DNA from: Desulfobulbus oligotrophicus
GTDB taxonomy: Bacteria; Desulfobacterota; Desulfobulbia; Desulfobulbales; Desulfobulbaceae
DNA length: 64,000 nucleotides
Assembly (NCBI RefSeq): GCF_016446285.1
Contig: NZ_CP054140.1
Location: 2,213,501-2,277,500 of the forward strand
Direction of reading: 5' to 3'
Shown: piece after piece, positions 9,112 through 48,025 of the stretch
Position numbering within the stretch: position 1 is the stretch's first letter
How the letters are laid out: every line of letters begins with the position of its first letter
Program-made: the position numbers and the translations under genes
Notes under the pieces: model-generated
Databases searched by the model: none
What the model was told of the DNA's origin: nothing
What the model saw: the letters and a program-made list of their open reading frames with translations, nothing else

Positions 9112-9744
9112 ATGAACAAGGTAATCAGATGGACAGCAATAATCGGAATGGCTGCTATGTTGACCGCTTGTGCCGGCGCCAACAGGCAACAGACCGGAAC
9201 CGGTGTTGGGGCTGCAGCCGGTGCAGGGGTAGGGGCAATCCTTGGTCAGGCTATTGGTCATAACACCACCAGTACGTTAGTTGGTGCTGGTATCGGCGCT
9301 CTTTTGGGTGGAATTGCCGGTAATCAGATCGGTGCCTATATGGACAGCCAGGAACAGGATCTGCGGCAGGTCGAGGCTGCCAGTATTCAGCGTGACCACG
9401 ACGTGCTGACCGCCACCTTCAAAAGTGATATGTTTTTTGATTATGACTCATCCTCACTTAAACCAGGTGCGTACACTGAGCTGGACAGGGTTGCCAATGT
9501 ACTGAGCAAGTACCCGCAAACAACAATCCGGGTGGAAGGGCATACTGATGCGCGGGGGAGCGATCAGTATAATCAGCAGTTGTCCGAGCGTCGGGCCAAT
9601 GCAGTTAAAAATGCCCTTACACAGCGTGGGATAGACTCACGGCGTATTGAGGCGGTCGGTTACGGTGAGTCCCAGCTGATCTCTTCCAGTGATGCTATGA
9701 ACCGACGGGTTAATATCGTTATTACTCCGATTCGGCAGGGCTAA
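9112..9744 (+). CDS. OmpA-family lipoprotein with glycine-zipper segment
   Basis: The 210-residue protein has a lipoprotein signal peptide ending in the lipobox LTAC, so it should be lipid-anchored. A glycine/alanine-rich glycine-zipper region (about residues 35-85) follows, then a C-terminal OmpA domain (about 105-205) with the peptidoglycan-binding signature around GHTDARGS and NQQLSERRA. It probably tethers the outer membrane to peptidoglycan, like Pal or YiaD. The ATG at 9112 is preferred to the GTG at 9106, because AGGAG overlaps that codon and is correctly spaced for the ATG. Confidence 0.85.
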   Translation: MNKVIRWTAIIGMAAMLTACAGANRQQTGTGVGAAAGAGVGAILGQAIGHNTTSTLVGAGIGALLGGIAGNQIGAYMDSQEQDLRQVEAASIQRDHDVLTATFKSDMFFDYDSSSLKPGAYTELDRVANVLSKYPQTTIRVEGHTDARGSDQYNQQLSERRANAVKNALTQRGIDSRRIEAVGYGESQLISSSDAMNRRVNIVITPIRQG

Positions 9745-9762
9745 ACCGCACAGTATAGATGC

Positions 9763-10380
9763 ATGGATGGCTTTGACCATCTGACCAACATTATCGCCCT
9801 GACATTGGGTACTGCCTGGGCCAGCGGCATCAACCTGTATGCCGCTGTGCTCATGTTAGGGGTTCTGGGGGCAAAGAACATCATCCAGTTACCCGCAGGT
9901 CTGGAAATGCTGGCTCACCCCTGGGTGATCGGTGCGGCAGGGTGTATATATGTTGTCGAATTTATTGCTGATAAGGTGCCTGGGGTTGATACTGTATGGG
10001 ATGTTCTCCACACGTTTATTCGTATTCCAGCCGGAGTTATCCTGGCGGTCGCCGCAGTCGGGCATGTTGATACAGGGCTTGCTGTTGCCGCCGGATTGGG
10101 AGGCGGCACCTTATCGTTAGGCAGTCATGCACTGAAGTCCGGAACCAGGATTGTTGCTCATCTTTCTCCTGAACCTTTTTCTAACTGGACATTATCCCTG
10201 GGAGAAGATGCCCTGGTCGTTGCCGGTATCTGGAGTGCGCTCAACCATCCGTGGATCTTTCTTTTTCTCTTGCTCTTCTTCTTCATGATCGCAATCTGGT
10301 CGATTGCTCGTCTCTGGAAAATCCTTGGCCACAAACTGCGCAGTGTGGATACCGTCTTTCGCCGGTTTCTCCTGCGATAA
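9763..10380 (+). CDS. DUF4126 family membrane protein
   Basis: The 205-residue protein begins with the TWASG.N.Y-type start (GTAWASGINLYAAV) that I associate with DUF4126, followed by four to five hydrophobic helices. A very hydrophobic Phe/Leu helix near residues 165-185 and a basic C-terminus suggest a cytoplasmic tail. The function of the family is unknown. It starts 18 bases after the lipoprotein gene and is probably cotranscribed with it. It converges on the HD-GYP gene with no clear terminator between them. Confidence 0.7.
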   Translation: MDGFDHLTNIIALTLGTAWASGINLYAAVLMLGVLGAKNIIQLPAGLEMLAHPWVIGAAGCIYVVEFIADKVPGVDTVWDVLHTFIRIPAGVILAVAAVGHVDTGLAVAAGLGGGTLSLGSHALKSGTRIVAHLSPEPFSNWTLSLGEDALVVAGIWSALNHPWIFLFLLLFFFMIAIWSIARLWKILGHKLRSVDTVFRRFLLR

Positions 10381-10430
10381 ACCACATGGTTGCCATTGGT
10401 TCACTGCACTGCAGCATCCATGATCGCCCA

Positions 10431-11828
10431 TCAGTAGTAGATAGTCATCCTTTCATTGAAGTAGTGATTGAACACTGCCCGTAGATCATCTTCGAGTTTC
10501 CGGGGTGAACAGTCGACATAGGCGCGATATAACTCCGGAATCAGTGCCTGGAAAGCACTGAGGATCTGGGGATCGAAATGTGTGTTTCTGCCACGCTCCA
10601 GAACAGCGGATGCCGCCTGCCAGGAAAGCGGCTCTTTATAGGGTCGTTTTGAAGTTAAAGCATCGAACACGTCGACAACTGCAAAAATCCTTGCCGGCAA
10701 AGGGATATCTGCACCTGCCTTGCCCTGGGGATAACCGCTGCCGTCAAATTTTTCATGGTGATTTTCAATGATCTGCGCTGCATCGGCCAACCACCCGGAT
10801 CCGGTTATAATATCCGTGCCGTGGTGGACATGATCTTGCATCAGACGACTTTCTTCTTTATTGAGTTCGCCTGTCTTAAGAAGTATCTCATCGCGCACCC
10901 CGATTTTTCCGATATCGTGCAGAAATGCACCTTTAATCAATGTCTGAATTTCGGTGGCGGCCAGGCCCATCGATTCAGCGAGATGAACGGCATACAGTGT
11001 CACCCGGAAATGATGGTCTGCAGTGTTGCTGTCGCGTTTGGCAATAACGTTGGCAAGCAGTGCAAAGGTGTCGAGGTTGGCTTTTAAAAGGTTGTGGGAA
11101 AAAATCGTCAGCCTGTTGACCAGGTGTACAATGACCGGATACAGCAGGACACTGGTCGCCAGTACGGTGAGTATGATAAGGATCAGAATACGGCGCAGTT
11201 TTTTTTGCATACCCTTAAGAACAGTATCAGAAGGAGCAAAGAGAACACGAACGGAACCGGTTTGTTCCTGTTTCTGATCAAATATCGGCAGAATCACATG
11301 AATGTGCAATCTGTCCCCAAGCGTGACAACTTCGGCCAGTTCAACGTTACCAGTTGGGGGCGGATGAACACGGACATACCTCTCTACAGTTTTGGCGTAT
11401 GTGTAGTCAGTGTTCAGCCGTTCCTCAGTTTGGTGGGGATCATCGGATCGATAAAATCCGCCATACACATAGCTGCCGCTATTTTGTTGTGCCGCCAGGG
11501 CAGTGAAACGTTCATCCAGTGCCTGAAGAAATGCAGCCTGACTGTTGACGTGATCTTCTTCGGCAATCAATATCGATCTGGCAAGCAGTTGGTGTAGTCC
11601 CTGTTGTGTTGACCTGGTCACTTCAGTTGTGAGGTGCTGCCGTTCCGTGAAGAACACCATGGTGCCGGTGGCTGAACAGATGACAGCCGTCATGAGCAGC
11701 AGGCGTACGGTAAGAACACGATAGATAAAACGATGCAGCACAGGAGGGCGAGGTGTTGGCATTGTGCGTAACTGTATTTTGCAAGAACAGGTGCAGGAAC
11801 GGTGAACAGGTTCAGGCTGCAAACACAT
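10431..11828 (-). CDS. Membrane-anchored HD-GYP domain protein (predicted cyclic-di-GMP phosphodiesterase)
   Basis: Two membrane helices (about residues 35-60 and 212-235) bracket a periplasmic sensor region of some 150 residues with no recognised fold. The cytoplasmic part is an HD-GYP domain with HD at 304-305 (FLHDIGKIG), HH at 357-358 and the GYP motif at 365-367 (FDGSGYP). All metal and signature positions look intact, so c-di-GMP hydrolysis is likely. There is no GGDEF domain. The start could instead be the Met at residue 23, since neither start has a strong ribosome site. It is a single gene with no operon partner. Confidence 0.85.
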   Translation of the reverse strand: MCLQPEPVHRSCTCSCKIQLRTMPTPRPPVLHRFIYRVLTVRLLLMTAVICSATGTMVFFTERQHLTTEVTRSTQQGLHQLLARSILIAEEDHVNSQAAFLQALDERFTALAAQQNSGSYVYGGFYRSDDPHQTEERLNTDYTYAKTVERYVRVHPPPTGNVELAEVVTLGDRLHIHVILPIFDQKQEQTGSVRVLFAPSDTVLKGMQKKLRRILILIILTVLATSVLLYPVIVHLVNRLTIFSHNLLKANLDTFALLANVIAKRDSNTADHHFRVTLYAVHLAESMGLAATEIQTLIKGAFLHDIGKIGVRDEILLKTGELNKEESRLMQDHVHHGTDIITGSGWLADAAQIIENHHEKFDGSGYPQGKAGADIPLPARIFAVVDVFDALTSKRPYKEPLSWQAASAVLERGRNTHFDPQILSAFQALIPELYRAYVDCSPRKLEDDLRAVFNHYFNERMTIYY

Positions 11829-12059
11829 GCCTGGAATTGAACCCTGAACTGCTTTTACAGACTACAAAAACACATTGTTGACTGCAGCTGCAATAAATAT
11901 TGTAGACGATCCGATTGTCTCAGCCGGTGGGTTATGTTCTCTTCTGCGGAGACTGTGGCGTGGTGAATACCATTTGGTGAGGGAATTTTTATAAGCAGGA
12001 GGAACGGCTGCCAGAAACGTATGTGAACAGTACGTTGTCTTTTTGTACTGCCACATTCA

Positions 12060-13043
12060 CTAAACAGGCAAAAACCGATAGAGGATGGTGGCGATGAACA
12101 TGCACACCGGGATGGTCAGCACCCAGGCCAGGACGATGTTGCCGACAATGCCGAGTTTGAGAGCGTTGGCGCCCCTTGTGCTGCCCACGCCCATGATCGA
12201 GGTGGAGATGATATGGGTTGTACTCACAGGGATACCGAAATGAGAGGCGGTCAGGATCACAGCTGCAGCTGAGGTTTCAGCAGCAAAACCATGCACAGGT
12301 TTGAGTTTGATCATTTTGCTGCCCATGGTACGGATGATCCGCCAACCACCGGCCATGGTGCCCAGACCCATGGTGACAGCACAACTGAGAATAACCCAGG
12401 TCGGCACCTTGAACTCGTCTAGGAGACCGTTACTAACCAGGGCCAGGGTAATAATACCCATGGTCTTTTGCGCATCGTTGCTGCCGTGACTGAGCGCCAT
12501 GATTCCCGCTGAAACCAGCTGCAACTTACGAAACCACTTGTTGACGATGTTCGGGCGTGCCCGTGCGCAGGTCCAGAGAATAATGACCATGAAGACAAAA
12601 CCGATTCCAAAACCGAACATCGGTGAGGTAACCATCGGCATCAGAATTTTTTTTGTGACGCCGTCAAACAGAATAACTTCCCAACCGGCCTTGGCAATAC
12701 CGGCTCCCATCAGTCCACCGATCAGGGCATGGGAGGAGCTGGATGGAATGCCATAGTACCAGGTGACCAGGTTCCAGATAATTGCGGATAAAAGAGCGCA
12801 AAGGATGACTCCCTGGGTGACAATTTCAGCAGTGATGATCCCCTGTCCAATGGTATTGGCCACATGTGTTCCAAGAAATGCACCAATGACCTCGAAACAC
12901 CCTGCATAGATAACAGCTACCCGGGCCGTCAGGACCTTTGTCGAAACAACAGTGGCAATGGAGTTGGCTGAATCATGAAATCCATTGATATATTCAAAGA
13001 CCAATGCCGCAAAAATTACCAGTATAAGCAGAGCTGTAATCAT
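12060..13043 (-). CDS. pit: PiT-family inorganic phosphate transporter
   Basis: The 327-residue, ten-helix inner-membrane protein carries the two inverted PiT signature repeats, GFHDSANSIATVVSTKVL near the N-terminus and SHGSNDAQKTMG in the middle, which form the ion and phosphate site. It probably moves phosphate with protons or sodium. A GAGG ribosome site precedes the ATG. It lies 56 bases downstream of the DUF47 gene on the same strand, the usual arrangement of a low-affinity transporter with its accessory protein. Confidence 0.92.
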   Translation of the reverse strand: MITALLILVIFAALVFEYINGFHDSANSIATVVSTKVLTARVAVIYAGCFEVIGAFLGTHVANTIGQGIITAEIVTQGVILCALLSAIIWNLVTWYYGIPSSSSHALIGGLMGAGIAKAGWEVILFDGVTKKILMPMVTSPMFGFGIGFVFMVIILWTCARARPNIVNKWFRKLQLVSAGIMALSHGSNDAQKTMGIITLALVSNGLLDEFKVPTWVILSCAVTMGLGTMAGGWRIIRTMGSKMIKLKPVHGFAAETSAAAVILTASHFGIPVSTTHIISTSIMGVGSTRGANALKLGIVGNIVLAWVLTIPVCMFIATILYRFLPV

Positions 13044-40384: not shown

Positions 40385-40474
40385 TTTTCCGTTGCAAAAA
40401 CGCGACGTTCAGGATAGAAGAGGCTCCAAGCTGAGCAGGGTATACTGCCTGGCTGATGTTTTTCAGTCATCTAC

Positions 40475-40560
40475 GGAGAGGTGACCGAGTGGTTTAAGGT
40501 GCACGCCTGGAACGCGTGTGTACGAGAGTACCGAGAGTTCGAATCTCTCCTTCTCCGCCA
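40475..40560 (+). tRNA. tRNA-Ser (anticodon GGA)
   Basis: The 86-nt class II tRNA has acceptor arms GGAGAGG/CTTCTCC, anticodon stem CACGC/GCGTG with loop CTGGAAC, a long variable arm, a GTTCGAAT T-loop, discriminator G and encoded CCA. It marks the left edge of the accessory island. Confidence 0.96.
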
Positions 40561-40564
40561 TTTT

Positions 40565-40599
40565 AAAGGGTCCCTTGCCAGGCAAGGGGCCCTTTTTTT
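40565..40599 (+). terminator. Intrinsic terminator after tRNA-Ser
   Basis: AAAGGG-CCCTTGCC pairs with GGCAAGGG-CCCTTT (one G-T position), followed by seven T. It ends the tRNA transcript. Confidence 0.92.
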
Positions 40600-41038
40600 A
40601 TTGGTCTCACCCCCCTGAAGTCCTTTCCTTTATTTCATCGAATAATCTGCTGATTCAGGTATCATCTGTCCGGTGATGTGGAACTCCGTGATGAAAAATT
40701 CTTTTTTTTGTTATAAAAGCTGTTTACACACTTGGATTTTCATTATCATTTTAAAGCTGGTGTGTAGACGTGCTGCACCAGATGATAAACGAGAAAAAGC
40801 TCTTGGACTACCGTGTTTTCACAAACTAACGGTCGTTCATCTTTGATCGTCAATTGCCGCGAAGAGCATCTCTTTGTTCCGGTCATATTCGTTTTTAGAC
40901 AATAGGGGCAGAAAGACTCTCTGCTTCTGCAGACAATCTGGAGAGAAAGACTGTTGTAGATATCTACTTGAATTTATTCATGTAGATTAATCAGAAAGCA
41001 TAGTACAGACATATGCTGAAGAATGGTAGAAGAGAAAA
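40600..41038. promoter_or_regulatory. Leader region of the defence island with operator-like repeats
   Basis: No gene is visible. It holds an interrupted inverted repeat, GTTTACACAC (40722-40731) with GTGTGTAGAC (40760-40769), one G-T mismatch. Close to the first gene lies a perfect palindrome GTAGATATCTAC (40956-40967), with a further GTAGAT copy at 40982-40987 facing ATCTAC. These spaced TGTAGAT half-sites look like a repressor operator. The stretch is AT-richer than the flanking chromosome. Confidence 0.45.
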
Positions 41039-41569
41039 ATGATGAACAACCCAGTACTTGATAGAATAAGAGAATCTCTCCAGGCAGCCGAAGAACTGTA
41101 CTCTCGTTTGGTGCTGCTGGTCGTCGGTAACTACGGCACGGGTAGTAAATCGCACCTGATGTCGGTGGTCTCCAGCATCGCTGAAGATGCCTCGCTGCTG
41201 AAAGGACTGAAGAACGCCTGTGTCCGCGATGCAGCCGCTCAGATAGCCGGTCGCTTCAAGGTCATCTGTACCGAGATTGGAGCCACCACCATGTCGTTGC
41301 GCGACTATCTGCTTACCTCACACCCCGCATTTTTCCGCGAAGCGGAAAACCGTTGGTACGACGTACCTGACCCCAACAAAGCCGCTAAAAAGAAACTCAA
41401 AATTCTCCACTTGGAAGCTGTCCGCGCTGGATTTAAAAAAACTTGGCAGGAGCGTGATTACGCTACTATCGTCGCCGTGGCCGAAAAGATCCGCGACAAT
41501 TTCCTGGAAAAAGACCCCAAACTGGTCATGTGGTACGACCAGGCAGCAACACGGATGGGGGACGAATAA
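41039..41569 (+). pseudogene. Chimeric remnant: ATPase N-terminus joined to a DNA-methylase-like C-terminus
   Basis: The 176-residue frame seems to be two unrelated pieces. Residues 1-88 resemble the start of large DUF6079/PglY-type P-loop ATPases of phage-defence islands ([35 protein letters not shown]), but a serine splits the Walker A motif (GTGSKSH). Residues from about 95 resemble the tail of large DNA methyltransferases ([41 protein letters not shown]). Both matches are from memory. An internal deletion across neighbouring genes of a larger system would explain it. Its stop overlaps the ATPase start (TAATG), so it may still serve as a translated leader. Confidence 0.5.
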
Positions 41570-42576
41570 TGGCAAGAGCGGATTTACTCATTCGCCTTGT
41601 CCAATCCGGTATACGGGGTGACAAGGCCAGCTTTAGAAAGGTCGTCGAGGCGATCATCGCCGAAGAGCGGAGCAAGCAACACAAGGTGCTGGCCGAGAAA
41701 CTCGAGGAGTTACTTAACGCCGCGCCAGTTGAACGCCCCGCTATCAATGGCGGTGCTCCTATGCTGGATCACCGTATGAACAACCTGTTCCATGAGGTTA
41801 TGCCCCAACGAAAGCTATCCGATCTCATCCTTCCGGATGAGGTCCAGCAAATTTGCCAGAGCTTGATTCAGGAGCAGCACCGGACCGACCTGCTCAGGTC
41901 CTACAATTTGGAGCCCCGCAACCGCGTGCTTCTCATCGGGCCTCCTGGTAATGGCAAGACATCCCTGGCCGAAGCCATTGCAGAAGCACTGGTGGTTCCA
42001 CTGCTTGTGGTTCGCTATGAGAGCGTCGTCGGCACCTATCTGGGCGAGACTGCTGTTCGTTTGAAAAAACTGTTCGAGTACGCTTCCACTCGTAAGTGTG
42101 TCCTCTTTTTTGATGAATTTGAAACCCTTGGCAAGGAGCGCGGTGACCTGCACGAGACCGGTGAAATCAAGCGCGTGGTGAGTTCGCTGCTCATGCAGAT
42201 CGACAACCTGCCGAGCCATGTCATGGTCATTGGGGCAACCAATCATGCCGAACTACTGGACCGTGCGGTATGGCGGCGCTTCCAGGTCCGCATGACGCTA
42301 CCCGGTCCAACTCGGGCTCGCCTGACAGAGTGGTTCGAAAAGTTCGAACGCCGGATCAAGATTCCCTTGGGATATGCTCCTGGCACTTTGGCCAAACGTC
42401 TCCAAGGATCGAATTTCGCTGAAGTTGAAGAGTTTGGTACGTCCCTATTTCGTCAGTACGTGCTTGAACAACCGAACGCCAACATGAAGGACATCGTATC
42501 AAGAACTCTTCGGAACTGGTCTGCCAGATCGGTTACCATGGAGCAACAGAACAAACCGGAGGTGAAGGATGCCTGA
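41569..42576 (+). CDS. ietA: AAA+ ATPase of an IetAS-type anti-phage system
   Basis: The 335-residue protein has a helical N-terminal part and a classical AAA+ domain: Walker A GPPGNGKT (124-131), Walker B LFFDEFE (179-185), sensor 1 in IGATNH and arginines in WRRF. GGGGGACG precedes the ATG, which overlaps the stop of the remnant gene. The pairing with a subtilase gene (eight-base overlap) is that of the ietAS system described by Gao and co-workers in 2020. The ATPase probably senses infection or remodels targets for the protease; the mechanism is unknown to me. Confidence 0.75.
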   Translation: MARADLLIRLVQSGIRGDKASFRKVVEAIIAEERSKQHKVLAEKLEELLNAAPVERPAINGGAPMLDHRMNNLFHEVMPQRKLSDLILPDEVQQICQSLIQEQHRTDLLRSYNLEPRNRVLLIGPPGNGKTSLAEAIAEALVVPLLVVRYESVVGTYLGETAVRLKKLFEYASTRKCVLFFDEFETLGKERGDLHETGEIKRVVSSLLMQIDNLPSHVMVIGATNHAELLDRAVWRRFQVRMTLPGPTRARLTEWFEKFERRIKIPLGYAPGTLAKRLQGSNFAEVEEFGTSLFRQYVLEQPNANMKDIVSRTLRNWSARSVTMEQQNKPEVKDA

Positions 42577-45220
42577 ACGCCCACTACTCCTTTTCCCGAC
42601 ACCTGAAACGGCTTCTCGTTCAACGCTTGGAGGTGGTGGAGGTCGAGTAAGAAGGCCAACACCACAACGACAATGGGATCGCCTTTCTCCAGTCTTCAGT
42701 CAACTCCAGGCCACATTTGATGCCAGACGAATAGAAATACAGCAGAGTGCTGCTGGCATAATTCCAGAGCAGGTTCTCGTGATAGAGACTGTCGGAAGTA
42801 TCGAAAACTTTGCCAATGCAGTGAAACGCATCGTGGGGCTCGAGTGGATGGGTGAAATTGAAATTGATGAAATTACCCCAGATGAAGAGTTTTATGATGA
42901 AACCAAACCCGACAAAGAGCTGAGTGGGCGACTATATCTCGTCATGACCAACCAGCAAGCACTTGAGCAGATGCTGTCGTTGTGGCGACGTTACCAAGAA
43001 GATCCCACTATGCAATTCGAGCACGGACTTACAAAGTTTCGCGACGTGTTCCTGCACCTGAAAAGCATCCGCCAGTGGGATGTCCAGGATAGGCTTCTCG
43101 AAACCGGAATCATTGATGTCTGGAGAGAGAATCTTGAGTACGACGGGGATAGGGTAATTACGTTTGAGACTGAACTTTGGTTTCGTGGTAGCAACGAGCT
43201 TCGCGCAGTTAGCGAGAGTCAAGTTACGTACCTCGTCCAGCAAGCAGGCGGCCGAATACTAAACCAGTCAGTAATTGAAGGCATCGCCTACCATGGGCTC
43301 CTGGCCGAGCTTTCGGCTCATGCTATTCGATCTATTGTGGAGAACCCAACAACTGAACTGGTTAAATGTGAGAACGTCATGTTCTTCAGACCTGTTGGAC
43401 AAATGGTGGTCGGAGACAAATCTCCAGAGGGGGATGTTGAAAACGCCCAAATTGAAGAAATGCCACTGCCTACTGGTGATCCTGTCGTAGCTCTTTTTGA
43501 TGGGGTTCCGCTGGCCAATCATCGTTTGTTGGCTGGCCGTTTGATTATTGACGATCCAGACAACTGGGACGCTGATTACGCGGCCTCCGAACGTGTCCAC
43601 GGAACATCGATGGCATCATTGATTGTTCATGGTGATCTCAATCAGCCTTCTACTCCATTACCTCGGCCGATCTATGTGCGGTCTATTATGAAGCCACTGA
43701 ACTGGCTAAATACACCACGCCCCGAGGGCATTCCGGAAAACTGCCTAGCAGTCGATCTTATCCACAGAGCGGTTAAACGGTTATTTGAAGGGGGGCAGGG
43801 AGAAGGACCAACAGCACCTCAAGTTAGGGTCATTAATCTGTCGATCGGAGACCGAACTCGTCAATTCACACAATCCATGAGCCCTATTGCCAGATTGCTG
43901 GACTGGTTGAGTGTGAAGTATGGCGTGCTTTTTGTTGTCAGTGCAGGAAATCATCCGACATCTATATCATTGGGGGTATCTCAGGAAGAATTTGATTCAT
44001 TTCGAGCTGACGAGTTCGAGGCTGCAACGATCAGAGCTTTGTATCGGGATGCCCGTCATAGGAAGCTGCTTTCACCTGCAGAAACAATCAATGGGTTGAC
44101 GGTTGGCTCCACACATCAAGATGAATCTCAGCTCACCTATCAAGGAAACCGGATAGATCCGTTCGAGCATCCATTACCCAGCCCAGTTTCTGCATTTGGC
44201 AGCGGTTATCGACGTGCAATAAAACCCGACGTTATCTTCTACGGCGGGAGACAGTGGTACCGGTTGCCATTACAGCCAACCAATCCCGTAACCATTGAGC
44301 CAGCAATTTTTCGGGTTCCTCCCGGAAACAAAACAGCTTCTCCCGGAAGTCTTGCTGGTGAATTAGATGCCACTTCATACAGTTGTGGAACGAGCAACGC
44401 AACAGCGTTGATCAGTAGGGCGGCGTGTATTTGTTACGACTCCCTGCAGCAAATCTTTAGTGAACAAGCGGCTGAAGTTGATCCGAGAAGTTATGAAGTC
44501 CCACTACTGAAGGCGATGCTGGTGCATGGCTGTTCGTGGGGCGATATCGGTGATCACCTAAAGTCTCGAATCGAAAATTCGGATCTTGGAAGGGAAATTA
44601 GAGAACGTGCTGAGTCTTTGTATTCGAGGCCAGCAGACATCTCTAGTGAAATTGGTAGGCAGTATAAATCTCTTCTGGCTCGCTGGTTGGGCTATGGCCT
44701 TCCACAAATAGACCGGGTTCTTGACTGTACAGATCAGAGAGCCACCTTGCTTGGCTATGGTGAACTCTCTGATGGTGAAGCTCACGTTTTTCGATTGCCG
44801 TTACCTCCATCTCTCAGCGCCCGCCAAGAGCGAAGACGCTTAACAGTGACTCTTGCTTGGCTTTCACCTGTTTCGGCCAGCACTCAAAGATACCGGACAG
44901 CAAGCCTATGGTTTGAAGCTATTAATAACGGTTTGGCTCCATCTCGTCAGAACGCAGATTGGCAAACTGTGAAGAGAGGAACAGTCCAACACGAAGTGTT
45001 CGAAGGCCAGAGAGCGGAGCCGTTCATCGATGGGGAAGTTATCGAAATCAAAGTGAACTGCCGTAAGGATGCTGGAAAAATCCAAAATCCTGTCGCGTAT
45101 GGGTTGGCCGTGTCGCTGGAGGTAGCCGAGGGCGTCGACATCGCTGTTTACAACGAAATTCGAACTCGCATTGCACCTGCGATCCAGATTCAACAGGTAA
45201 CAGATCAAGGTAGAGGATAA
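42569..45220 (+). CDS. ietS: S8 subtilisin-like protease of an IetAS-type anti-phage system
   Basis: The 883-residue protein has no signal peptide, so it should act in the cytoplasm. A long N-terminal region of about 300 residues precedes the subtilase domain with the complete triad Asp311 (VALFDG), His344 (VHGTSMAS) and Ser609 (CGTSNAT), and the oxyanion Asn461 (SAGNH). A C-terminal region of about 250 residues follows. It is coupled to the ATPase gene by an eight-base overlap. Base composition is visibly more AT-rich than the neighbouring chromosome, which fits transfer. A decayed transposon lies just downstream. Confidence 0.78.
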   Translation: MPERPLLLFPTPETASRSTLGGGGGRVRRPTPQRQWDRLSPVFSQLQATFDARRIEIQQSAAGIIPEQVLVIETVGSIENFANAVKRIVGLEWMGEIEIDEITPDEEFYDETKPDKELSGRLYLVMTNQQALEQMLSLWRRYQEDPTMQFEHGLTKFRDVFLHLKSIRQWDVQDRLLETGIIDVWRENLEYDGDRVITFETELWFRGSNELRAVSESQVTYLVQQAGGRILNQSVIEGIAYHGLLAELSAHAIRSIVENPTTELVKCENVMFFRPVGQMVVGDKSPEGDVENAQIEEMPLPTGDPVVALFDGVPLANHRLLAGRLIIDDPDNWDADYAASERVHGTSMASLIVHGDLNQPSTPLPRPIYVRSIMKPLNWLNTPRPEGIPENCLAVDLIHRAVKRLFEGGQGEGPTAPQVRVINLSIGDRTRQFTQSMSPIARLLDWLSVKYGVLFVVSAGNHPTSISLGVSQEEFDSFRADEFEAATIRALYRDARHRKLLSPAETINGLTVGSTHQDESQLTYQGNRIDPFEHPLPSPVSAFGSGYRRAIKPDVIFYGGRQWYRLPLQPTNPVTIEPAIFRVPPGNKTASPGSLAGELDATSYSCGTSNATALISRAACICYDSLQQIFSEQAAEVDPRSYEVPLLKAMLVHGCSWGDIGDHLKSRIENSDLGREIRERAESLYSRPADISSEIGRQYKSLLARWLGYGLPQIDRVLDCTDQRATLLGYGELSDGEAHVFRLPLPPSLSARQERRRLTVTLAWLSPVSASTQRYRTASLWFEAINNGLAPSRQNADWQTVKRGTVQHEVFEGQRAEPFIDGEVIEIKVNCRKDAGKIQNPVAYGLAVSLEVAEGVDIAVYNEIRTRIAPAIQIQQVTDQGRG

Positions 45221-45256
45221 TTAGAGGATCGAGTCTTTCTAGCAATACAGCACGGT

Positions 45257-45974
45257 TCATAACAATGCCTGCCAAGTGATCGAGGAACAGATCTTGTGTG
45301 GGCAGACGGTGTGCTGCTGTGTCTCGGCGGTCATACGCTCTGCCAAAGTCCAGCCAACTACCATCCGTGAAAACAGATCGATAATCACAGCAAGGTAAGG
45401 CCATCTTTCAGCTGTCCAGAGATAGGTTATATTGCTTGCCCACTTCTGGTTCGGAGCATCGGCGCTGAAATTCTGCTGGAGCATATTTAGCGTGACCGGA
45501 AGATTGTGCTTCGAGTTTGTCGTCGTCAGCGGTAGAATCCGCTACGAGAGACACCCAACACACGGCTCATGGAAGTACTCTTGAATTCGTCTGCATGGTT
45601 CTGCATAAAGGCGTACCTCACTGTAGGCTCTTGGCAAAGTACGCTGCGGCCTTTTTACCCTAGTCAACTCTTCGGCCTGTTCGGCCGGCGCTTGAGCCGA
45701 GTGTTTTCTACAAGAAGTCGTTCTTCCACACCGCTGCGATTTTGGACAAGACGAGCCTTGCTTCGCCAGGAATACAGCTGGCTTTCATGAAGCCCTCATT
45801 GCCTGGCTGCTGTCGGAACACCAACCTTTTCGGCACAGGCCAGTGATTCTGTCTTGTACTGCTGTGGATGCCGCTATCTACTCTTTCCTGACTTTGTTTT
45901 CGTTGTCATCGAACACCTCCGTTAAAAAATATACTCGCTTAACGAAATATCCTTCAAAAACGGGGCAGGATCCA
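45257..45974 (-). mobile_element. Decayed IS3-family insertion sequence (orfA/orfB remnant)
   Basis: Read on the minus strand, a GGAGG site and ATG at 45909 start an orfA-like frame (MTTKTKSGKSR) broken by stops. It continues with transposase segments (ESQLYSWRSKARL, ENTRLKR) and then orfB-like pieces ([27 protein letters not shown]). A 75-residue open piece with the rve integrase start follows ([30 protein letters not shown]). The catalytic domain is cut off near the subtilase gene. The end near 45950-45974 looks like an IS3 terminal repeat with a CCCCG core. It cannot move on its own. Confidence 0.75.
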
Positions 45975-46051
45975 TTGAGTTTTGAATGTTTTTGGGTGCA
46001 GATCTTTTTGTATTTTTTGGATGTAAAACCAGTGTGAATGGCTGCTCTTTT

Positions 46052-48025
46052 TCAACCTGTGGGACTGGGAGTCATAAAAACGGCATGAAACCTGGCCCGT
46101 GCCTCATCAGAGCCAATGACAGCGACCATATCTTTTTCGTGAAAACGGTACTGCGGCCCGGGGTTGGGTTCCAGCTGGTTTTCTCGAAGCACGCCGACAA
46201 CAGATACCCCCGTCTTTTTACGGATCTCCGCCTCGCCGATTGACCTGTTGATCAGGCTGCTGTGCACGTTGACCGCAATCCATTCCAGGTCGAACTGCTG
46301 CTCTGCGGAACGAAACTGGGCAAGCGTTTTATAGGGTCTGCTCTGGCTGAGTCGACTGGTGAAAAATTCGCGGCGCAGGGCTTCAGTCTGTCGCTGTATC
46401 TCTGTTATCGGAACCTGCAATACCAAAAGCACCTGCCGAATCATCTCTACACCGGCTTCCAGTTCCGGATAGACCAGATCATACACATTCAGCTCACTGA
46501 AGGTTTCTGCAAAGTCCGGGTCGGAAATTCGTGCGATAATCTCAAGCGAGGGGTTTTGCAGTTGTGCATGCGTGATGATGGCCTCGTTATCCACCACTGA
46601 AGGAACAGTGATAACCAGTAAGGCCGCTTTTGCCACCCCGGCTGCTTCCAGAACAATTTCATGGCTGGCATCACCAAAGACAACAGCATACCCCAGGTTT
46701 TGTGCCTGTTCGATTCGTCGCTGGTCCAGTTCAATCAGAACAAAGGGGAGGGCAAGACGATGCAGGACCGCTGCGATCTGCAGACCGACCCGCCCACTGC
46801 CGGCCACGATGACGTGGTTGGAAAAACCGGTTTTAGGGAAGTTGATGGACTCCAGCTGTTCTTTTTTAAACCACTGTTTCTGCAGGGTGTACAACCGTGC
46901 AGTCTGTGCCGACACAATCGGCGTAAGGATCATGGTCAGGACAGCGGTTGTGAGGATAAGGTTGTAAAAGTCAATGCTGATCGATTGGGTGGACAGACCT
47001 ATTCTGGCAAGGACAAAGGAAAACTCACCAATCTGAAACAGGCCGAACCCAATGGCAATGGGGATGACATTGCGATACGAAAACAGCCAGGCAAGAGAGG
47101 CAAAGATAACGCCTTTACCAGTACTGACCAGTAAGACCAGCATCAGAATGGTGCCCAGGTTATTCATGAGGAATCGGGGGTCAAGGAGCATGCCCACCGA
47201 GGCAAAGAAGAGCAGGCCAAAGACATCGCGCAGGGGAATGATATCACTGAGCGCCTGATGACCATAGTCGGATTCATTCAAGACCATGCCCGCGATAAAG
47301 GCGCCAAAGGCAAAGGACAGGCCGACCAGGTAGGTCAGATACCCTATCCCGAGCCCAATGGTGATGATGGCCAGAAGAAACAGTTCCCGTGAACCGAGTT
47401 TAGCGATATGCCGCATAAGCCAGGGCAGCATTCTGGCGCCCAGCAGAAACATGCTGCCGAGAAAAAGAGAGGCTTTGACAGCTGCATACCCCAATGAGAT
47501 CAGCCCGGCGGCCGGGTCGTTCATCAGGGGGAGAATAATGAGCATCGGCACAACCGCCAGGTCCTGCACAATCAGCATGCCGATCATCACCTTGCTTGAC
47601 AGGGTTCCCAGCCACCCCTGATTCATCAGTGTTTTCAGCAGAACCATGGTGCTTGACAGGGAGATCAGCGCTCCAAACCAGATGGAGGATTTTGGATCCC
47701 ATCCCATCATTGTGCCGATACCGTAGCCAAGGAGCATGGTCAGACCGATCTGCACAGGGGTGCCGATCAGCGCAATCAGTTTGACCGGTTTAAGATCCTT
47801 GTGCGAGAACTCAAGCCCCAGGGCGAACAGGAGCAGGGCAACGCCGATTTCGGCAAGCAGTTCGATATCGTGCACTTCTGTAATGGTCAGCCCGCCGGTG
47901 TGCGGACCAAGAAGAATGCCGGCAAGGATGTAGCCGAGAATAAGGGGCTGGCGCAGACGCTGCATCAGCAGCCCGCATAAGAATGCCGTAAGAACAAGCA
48001 GGATAATGTCTGTTGCAATGCCCAT
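46052..48025 (-). CDS. KefB/YbaL-type monovalent cation:proton antiporter with TrkA domains
   Basis: The 657-residue protein has twelve or so membrane helices of the CPA2 fold (residues 1-390), then a TrkA-N domain with the nucleotide-binding motif [14 protein letters not shown] near residue 410, and a TrkA-C domain at the end. It exchanges potassium or sodium for protons under nucleotide control. No glutathione-dependent KefF/KefG partner is adjacent. The gene marks the return to ordinary chromosome after the island. No good ribosome site is seen before the ATG. Confidence 0.9.

Follow-up and report, generated by a model that had tools for sequence, protein, structure and literature searches.

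The ietAS pair of Desulfobulbus oligotrophicus is very probably the surviving cargo of a deleted type 3 BREX operon

Introduction

How did two intact defence genes come to stand among gene fragments in the genome of Desulfobulbus oligotrophicus? The question concerns ietA and ietS, which encode an AAA+ ATPase and a subtilase and lie in the locus at positions 40600-46051 of a 64,000-nt stretch (NZ_CP054140.1, positions 2,213,501-2,277,500, forward strand). The whole stretch is called the window here, and its coordinates are used throughout. The ietAS pair is said to be an anti-phage system described by Gao et al. in 2020. A preliminary description of this DNA took the locus for an accessory defence island, acquired and partly decayed, beside tRNA-Ser(GGA). 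The decay of the neighbouring genes was borne out, but the picture of independent island genes was not: ietAS would have arrived within a type 3 BREX operon (brxF-brxC-pglXI-brxHII-pglZ-brxA), as its cargo. The window pair is very probably what survives of that operon. Upstream deletions would have taken nearly all of brxF-brxC-pglXI and downstream deletions brxHII-pglZ-brxA, with the nested ietAS alone being spared.

Results

An intact ietAS pair lies between BREX gene ends

The central part of the locus contains the following features.

41039-41113, plus strand: brxF', the 5' end of brxF, which opens a chimeric open reading frame (ORF) at 41039-41569 (PADLOC, tblastn, DNA alignment)
41114-41308, plus strand: brxC', the P-loop segment of brxC (DNA identity to brxC of the same-genus locus L032)
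41309-41569, plus strand: pglXI', the 3' end of pglXI (PADLOC, tblastn)
41569-42576, plus strand: ietA, AAA+ ATPase, 335 amino acids (PADLOC IetA, Walker motifs)
42569-45220, plus strand: ietS, subtilase, 883 amino acids, D311/H344/S609 (PADLOC IetS, Pfam Peptidase_S8, structure model)
45228-45317, plus strand: brxHII', a 5' stump of brxHII (gap-free DNA alignment with L032, tblastn)

Both ietA and ietS are intact and adjacent on the same strand, ietA first, with the eight-base overlap (42569-42576) recognized in the preliminary description. Its assignment of the pair to ietAS was upheld by PADLOC profiles: IetA matched PDLC04232 (E 5e-153) and IetS matched PDLC04233 (E 0, 1133 bits), while profiles PDLC02197-02202 gave IetS only 32-89 bits. 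Pfam matches were AAA for IetA (E 2e-31) and Peptidase_S8 for IetS (E 5e-17). The assignment did not hold at the level of NCBI equivalogs, because IetA reached 220.4 of 510 bits and IetS 88.4 of 900 bits for the IetA and IetS families NF042959 and NF042956. On these scores, far below the cut-offs, the window pair is classed as a divergent branch, and published ietAS activity is therefore not simply transferable to it. Like the known system, it consists of an AAA+ ATPase gene followed by an overlapping S8 protease gene; it differs in its best profiles and in its setting, since related copies lie inside BREX and the window copy lies between BREX scars.

The Walker A (residues 124-131) and Walker B (178-183) motifs of IetA were conserved in 10 of 10 aligned rows. 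The IetS triad D311, H344 and S609 was conserved in all 10 rows of one alignment and all 15 of a second, and no signal peptide was seen by eye in IetS.

Upstream of the pair, the 176-amino-acid ORF 41039-41569 gave successive PADLOC matches to three type 3 BREX proteins: a weak one to BrxF (residues 2-47, E 4e-4), then BrxC (residues 26-145, E 3e-29) and PglXI (residues 114-175, E 2e-25). The BrxF part also matched L032 BrxF by tblastn (E 8e-7), with 77% DNA identity to L032 brxF at 41065-41121. Positions 41114-41305 are 87% identical to L032 brxC. The pglXI' part matched the PglXI C-termini of loci L052 and L036 (tblastn, 58%), and L032 pglXI DNA matched at 41376-41449 and from 41498 onward. 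The P-loop remnant reported earlier is thus a P-loop segment indeed, but what had been read as one decayed gene is three BREX gene ends fused in frame. Three extra bases within the Walker A codons of brxC' (GTGSKS vs. GTGKS) break the spacing of the motif. Two fusions and this insertion have left a single frame open between the starts of brxF and ietA, and the pglXI' TAA and the ietA ATG share one base (TAATG), an overlap that is the same in L032 and L033.

Downstream of ietS, a brxHII stump of about 90 bases had been overlooked. Its start codon is altered and its fifth codon is TAG; it was detected by tblastn (E 3e-8), and the ungapped DNA alignment with L032 reaches 45317. The window therefore retains pieces of four of the six type 3 BREX core genes, all in the correct order and orientation; no core gene is complete, and the locus does not score as a complete type 3 BREX system. 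No pglZ or brxA was found in the window by tblastn. In the whole genome (one contig, 99.99% complete) no further BrxC was found, and no BrxHII at E 1e-150.

Early tblastn matches had suggested that an IS3 element is kept behind ietS in L032, L035 and L036. This was rejected because ORF 45257-45484 runs antisense over the brxHII stump, so that the matches are brxHII starts read backwards.

Relatives carry ietAS between pglXI and brxHII

The same-genus locus L032 holds a complete type 3 BREX operon, with all six core types recognized by PADLOC among nine proteins scanned, in the order brxF, brxC, a Schlafen/AlbA_2 protein, pglXI, ietA, ietS, brxHII, pglZ and brxA. Window positions 41498-45317 form an ungapped alignment of 3,820 bases with L032 positions 9199-13018 at 92% identity, and this alignment spans the pglXI end, ietA, ietS and the brxHII start. 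Because it runs ungapped from pglXI through ietAS into brxHII, it points to deletion of BREX around a cargo that stayed in place.

By tblastn, ietAS also lies between pglXI and brxHII in L033 (genome G070), L036 (G192) and L052, a Porticoccaceae genome. The same nested order was observed in L035 (G163) as far as its short contig reaches. When 90 IetA proteins were placed in a tree, that of the window fell in a clade of eight rows (support 100/99) that consists of the window, all five nested copies, the G076 copy and Chlorobaculum locus L053. Five of the eight are nested, two have scars on both sides, and one is without BREX and has a probable scar. Within this clade window IetA was placed beside nested L052 (support 97/81).

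Across the nested cassettes IetS is far more variable than IetA (68% vs. 93% identity between the window and L035/L036), and its last ~80 residues are 91-96% alike in the same comparison. Between L032 and L036, PglXI is 52% identical alongside 97% identity of BrxC. Variable IetS and PglXI beside conserved stretches look like module exchange by recombination.

Loss of the BREX carrier is not confined to the window

In genome G076 (locus L034), tblastn revealed an intact ietAS pair with pglXI scraps on one side (E 2e-8 to 4e-8 for three of four queries, 1e-3 for the fourth) and a brxHII scrap on the other (E 3e-4). The pglXI scraps lie in different reading frames, and no BrxC was found in this assembly, which is 67% complete. 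No BREX gene was found in Chlorobaculum locus L053. When the 45 bases 5' of ietA were compared with the pglXI end in 84 loci, however, L053 scored 8.5 (next 6.5, median -1.5), was exceeded only by L035, the window and L034, and showed 13 identical bases in register. L053 is probably a third case of a lost carrier. Judged from such scars, the BREX carrier has been lost more than once. A 54-amino-acid BrxC C-terminal scrap in G192 (G192:C1:443279-443434), distant from the intact operon, suggests that G192 once had a further BREX copy, now lost.

Among 395 genomes of the phylum, ietS (E 1e-20) was present in 10, own genome included, and BrxHII (E 1e-150) in 17, at 19 places. In line with the acquisition claimed earlier, the pair is absent from most congeners sampled, ietS being found in one of five other same-genus genomes. 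Both ietS and BrxHII occurred in four genomes (0.43 expected; hypergeometric p 4e-4, uncorrected for kinship), and ietAS was nested in all four. The 10 ietS loci of the phylum comprise four nested, two scarred (the window and G076) and four without a BREX gene in the fetched stretch. A second phylum search, centred on G022, yielded no further genome with a match.

A further 80 IetA loci were examined. They are the best 80 of at least 321 confirmed in 84,980 species genomes and represent close relatives rather than a census; one of them (L052) was nested. Two other candidates, L063 and L090, were rejected as nested: their BrxHII-like helicases are distant (33% and 31%) and lie kilobases from ietAS, and L090 also has a 30% PglXI-like piece. 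Plasmid-borne nested copies were likewise rejected, as all 109 plasmid records matching IetA did so at <60% identity. Of 44 IetA loci on viral contigs, none had a BREX match at E 1e-10.

Type 3 BREX operons have a cargo slot between pglXI and brxHII

Gaps between core genes were measured in 23 type 3 loci (19 from the phylum, L052 and three on plasmids), with gap ends extrapolated from tblastn matches. The pglXI-brxHII gap contained 1.2-5.3 kb in 15 of 20 measurable loci and <0.5 kb in five; it was empty in all three plasmid loci. The brxC-pglXI gap was at least 0.9 kb in 12 of 19. Tight spacing was observed for brxF-brxC (13 measured, maximum 172 bases), brxHII-pglZ (21 measured, maximum 439 bases) and pglZ-brxA (21 measured, maximum 31 bases). 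Type 3 BREX thus has room for cargo between pglXI and brxHII; the contents of this slot, assigned by profile match with some small ORFs unscanned, are given below.

ietAS: five loci
Gabija-like gajA-gajB: L201
PsyrTA-like: L200
HEC-02-like: L207
PDC-M23B, also Hachiman-like: L199
AbiU/AIPR-like: L198
PDC-M45 and PDC-S19-like genes: L197
PD-T4-6-like kinase: L202
PDC-M34A-like: L206
unnamed 449-amino-acid family: L203 and L205, also L197

Several slot ORFs had no profile match at all, for example two of three in L202 and one of two in L206, and the type 3 pglXI-brxHII slot is a cheap hunting place for unknown defence genes. Genome G070 has two type 3 BREX operons, with ietAS in the slot of one (L033) and the AbiU/AIPR-like gene in that of the other (L198). 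The unnamed family (449-465 amino acids) is encoded at L203:9957-11306 (plus strand), L197:9623-10972 (plus strand) and L205:7810-9207 (minus strand), the other copies being 83% and 72% identical to that of L203. It gave no PADLOC or Pfam match where scanned (L203, L205) and no NCBIfam match above cut-off. Its invariant R-x4-H (RNSLVH, residues 387-392) presumably resembles the HEPN RNase motif.

A second cargo slot was noted between brxC and pglXI, at L032:4567-6468 and in the gaps of L197, L198, L202, L205, L208, L211 and L212. In L032 it holds the Schlafen/AlbA_2 protein, which is also of HATPase type; elsewhere it holds genes that look similar by eye or are annotated as RNA-binding. A DUF488-like pair, accompanied by a small third gene, adjoins ietAS at L039:6864-8631 (G359), where no BREX was seen, and lies within the BREX slot at L197:6505-8213 (G116). 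This likeness was judged by eye, save for one Pfam DUF488 match in L197.

Selection has acted on ietAS

Pairwise dN/dS (amino-acid-changing relative to silent change) between the window and L032 was 0.06 for ietA and 0.09 for ietS. L033 and L052 served to polarise the changes: 56 silent and 28 amino-acid changes fell on the window branch, and 47 and 12 on the L032 branch. The neutral expectation is ~2.5 amino-acid changes per silent change, and the window branch lies about five-fold below it. Selection has acted on ietAS, because amino-acid changes are far below the neutral expectation.

The tRNA end of the locus is variable

The outer parts of the locus are as follows.

40475-40560, plus strand: tRNA-Ser(GGA) (ARAGORN)
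40565-40595, plus strand: terminator hairpin 3' of the tRNA
40600-41038, no strand: AT-rich intergenic stretch; likeness to genome G015 extends beyond the tRNA to ~40726, then ends
45324-45972, minus strand: truncated IS3-family remnant (genomic copies; IS3 and rve domain matches of ORF 45257-45484)
from 46052, minus strand: antiporter gene

The tRNA with its terminator, the dead IS3 element and the antiporter gene at the far end had all been placed correctly in the preliminary description. The IS3 remnant matches other copies in its own genome piecewise with 83-87% identity, and ORF 45257-45484 is a transposase fragment whose NCBIfam IS3 match is below cut-off (E 4e-19; 69 of 160 bits required). 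The locus is not visibly AT-rich as had been stated. Its GC content is 49.6%, which is within the norm of 5,452-base windows over the 64 kb (mean 51.7%, standard deviation 2.1%; 44 of 293 as low or lower), and AT-richness is confined to the sequence just past the tRNA (42% GC at 40500-40999).

Of 14 relatives fetched, 12 have tRNA-Ser(GGA) closely behind tadA. The sequence beyond it differs by eye among the seven relatives with more than 1 kb there, and in G015, the nearest relative by tadA, the sequence stops 561 bases past the tRNA. In the congener G005 (L165), an ORF named integrase-like by eye from its sequence lies ~190 bases past the same tRNA. The tRNA place is variable in the genus.

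No clean empty site between tRNA-Ser and the antiporter gene was found through antiporter and tadA orthologs. None could be demonstrated because, among 13 relatives with both genes, these are on different contigs in 11 and 44 and 320 kb apart in the one-contig genomes G001 and G014. None of 11 fetched antiporter loci contained tadA; the antiporter gene is not a stable neighbour. In 40600-46051 no integrase was recognized, with not every small ORF scanned, and one could have been deleted. The 26-base tRNA end was unique in both window and genome at up to three mismatches, although a shorter or more degraded repeat would be missed in this way, and none of the direct repeats listed for 40400-46300 corresponded to it. 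Insertion at tRNA-Ser(GGA) is unproven.

The IetS model has a domain at the propeptide place

By profile, the closest solved structures to IetA are Cdc48/VCP-type ATPases, which form protein-pulling hexamers. For IetS, sequence comparison at E 0.001 gave no match among solved structures. In the predicted IetS model (pLDDT 76.7, pTM 0.82), a subtilase domain is followed by a C-terminal beta domain, an arrangement like that of KP-43 (Z 21.5, 371 aligned residues, root-mean-square deviation (rmsd) 3.4). The best Foldseek match of the whole model was pro-Tk-SP (E 5e-14); a viral library gave weak subtilase matches only. Residues ~173-277 are modelled as a ferredoxin-like domain directly before the protease domain. 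The N-terminal domain alone matched the front stretch of pro-Tk-SP (first row; Z 8.0, rmsd 3.2, 86 aligned) and that of CspB chain A (second row; Z 7.4, rmsd 4.2, 88 aligned), both of which we take to be propeptides.

Discussion

Scars of BREX genes flank the window pair on both sides, relatives carry the same pair nested in complete form, the frames and active sites of ietA and ietS are intact, and silent changes are in excess. The genome-wide absence of BREX is that of BrxC and BrxHII; PglXI, PglZ and BrxA were sought within the window. Could the locus instead be an ordinary defence island integrated at tRNA-Ser, with ietAS acquired alone and the P-loop fragment and IS3 as unrelated passers-by? 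The integrase-like ORF behind the same tRNA in G005 and the variable sequence past the tRNA in relatives would fit, but both neighbours of ietAS are BREX ends, ordered and oriented as in the nested operons, and neither an integrase nor a second tRNA end was recognized. The ungapped alignment from pglXI to brxHII largely refutes this explanation, which we regard as very improbable.

A further question is whether ietAS is itself decaying, as an unbroken pseudogene pair with no working promoter. Several observations lean this way and weigh against a functional survivor. Amino-acid changes make up about double the share on the window branch (28:56) that they do on the L032 branch (12:47; Fisher p 0.09), so that selection on the window pair may be relaxing. 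Part of that branch may also predate the deletions, and the silent excess is therefore no proof of function after them. Promoter-like sites are at chance level (three found, 5.0 expected): none lies in 40600-41038, and one weak site lies at 41443-41472, inside the scar ORF and ~100 bases before ietA. All the surroundings have decayed. Against decay of the pair stand the two intact frames, the conserved catalytic residues, the roughly five-fold deficit of amino-acid changes, and a second lineage, G076, that also retains intact ietAS amid BREX scraps. We consider decay of ietAS unlikely.

The chimeric ORF 41039-41569 might have been kept for a function, either as a product or as an in-frame leader that carries ribosomes into ietA through TAATG. 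Such a role would explain one open frame through two fusions and an insertion, and the TAATG overlap shared with L032 and L033. However, the insertion breaks the Walker A spacing, and the pglXI scraps of G076 are spread over different frames, so that an open leader is not needed there. Neither role seems probable.

We return to ietAS as the surviving cargo of a deleted type 3 BREX operon. Two sources state that the mechanism of ietAS is unknown (PMC9958689, PMC11878078). We tentatively propose that (i) IetA, as a Cdc48-like AAA+ ATPase, would sense or remodel something made during infection and then release or feed IetS; (ii) IetS would be a cytoplasmic subtilase, probably kept inactive in a zymogen-like manner by its own front domain at the propeptide place; and (iii) freed IetS would cut host or phage proteins and halt infection, with abortive infection as the likeliest mode. 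The front domain of IetS resembles ordinary ferredoxin-like folds about as closely (Z 6.5-7.4) as it does propeptides, Foldseek gave no trustworthy match for that domain alone, and no experiment on the present IetAS branch was found. Within a BREX operon, ietAS would serve as a back-up layer, and in the window it would have to act alone. The window pair is presumably antiviral.

Carriage of cargo behind pglX was known before. PARIS, for instance, is nested between pglX and pglZ in type I BREX of Salmonella (PMC11341690 and PMC9009780). According to PMC11341690, genes lie between pglX and pglZ in ~7,000 of ~9,000 genomes with both, and ~2,000 of those ~7,000 contain known systems, with BrxU and PARIS among the commonest. 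The Salmonella case resembles ours in having a complete second system directly behind pglX; in contrast, it concerns type I with PARIS or BrxU and an intact carrier, and here the carrier is type 3 and the cargo ietAS. Auxiliary nucleases have been catalogued inside BREX loci, type 3 included (Rakesh and Krishnan 2026, PMC12839542), and are comparable as back-up effectors within BREX operons. That work is a nuclease catalogue, and its main text contains none of the words 'ietas', 'subtilase' and 'subtilisin'. We found no report of ietAS in type 3 BREX or of cargo outliving a deleted BREX, in a literature in which subscription journals were thinly covered and Supplementary Fig. 1 of PMC11341690, a listing of further systems, may include ietAS.

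More speculatively, and with some doubt, both sides of pglX may be a general docking place across BREX types, where systems are swapped together with the methyltransferase, are coupled to BREX as cargo and are freed when BREX is deleted. Coupling would be translational, through pglX, and cargo might perhaps also act as a guard set off by inhibition of BREX. On this view, former BREX cargo would account for some of the stand-alone defence systems.

With scars on two sides and complete relatives, the window offers a worked example of a nested defence system turning stand-alone. It also provides a natural comparison, since the same ietAS branch occurs within a whole type 3 BREX (L032) and without BREX (the window and G076), so that the dependence of nested cargo on its carrier can be addressed.

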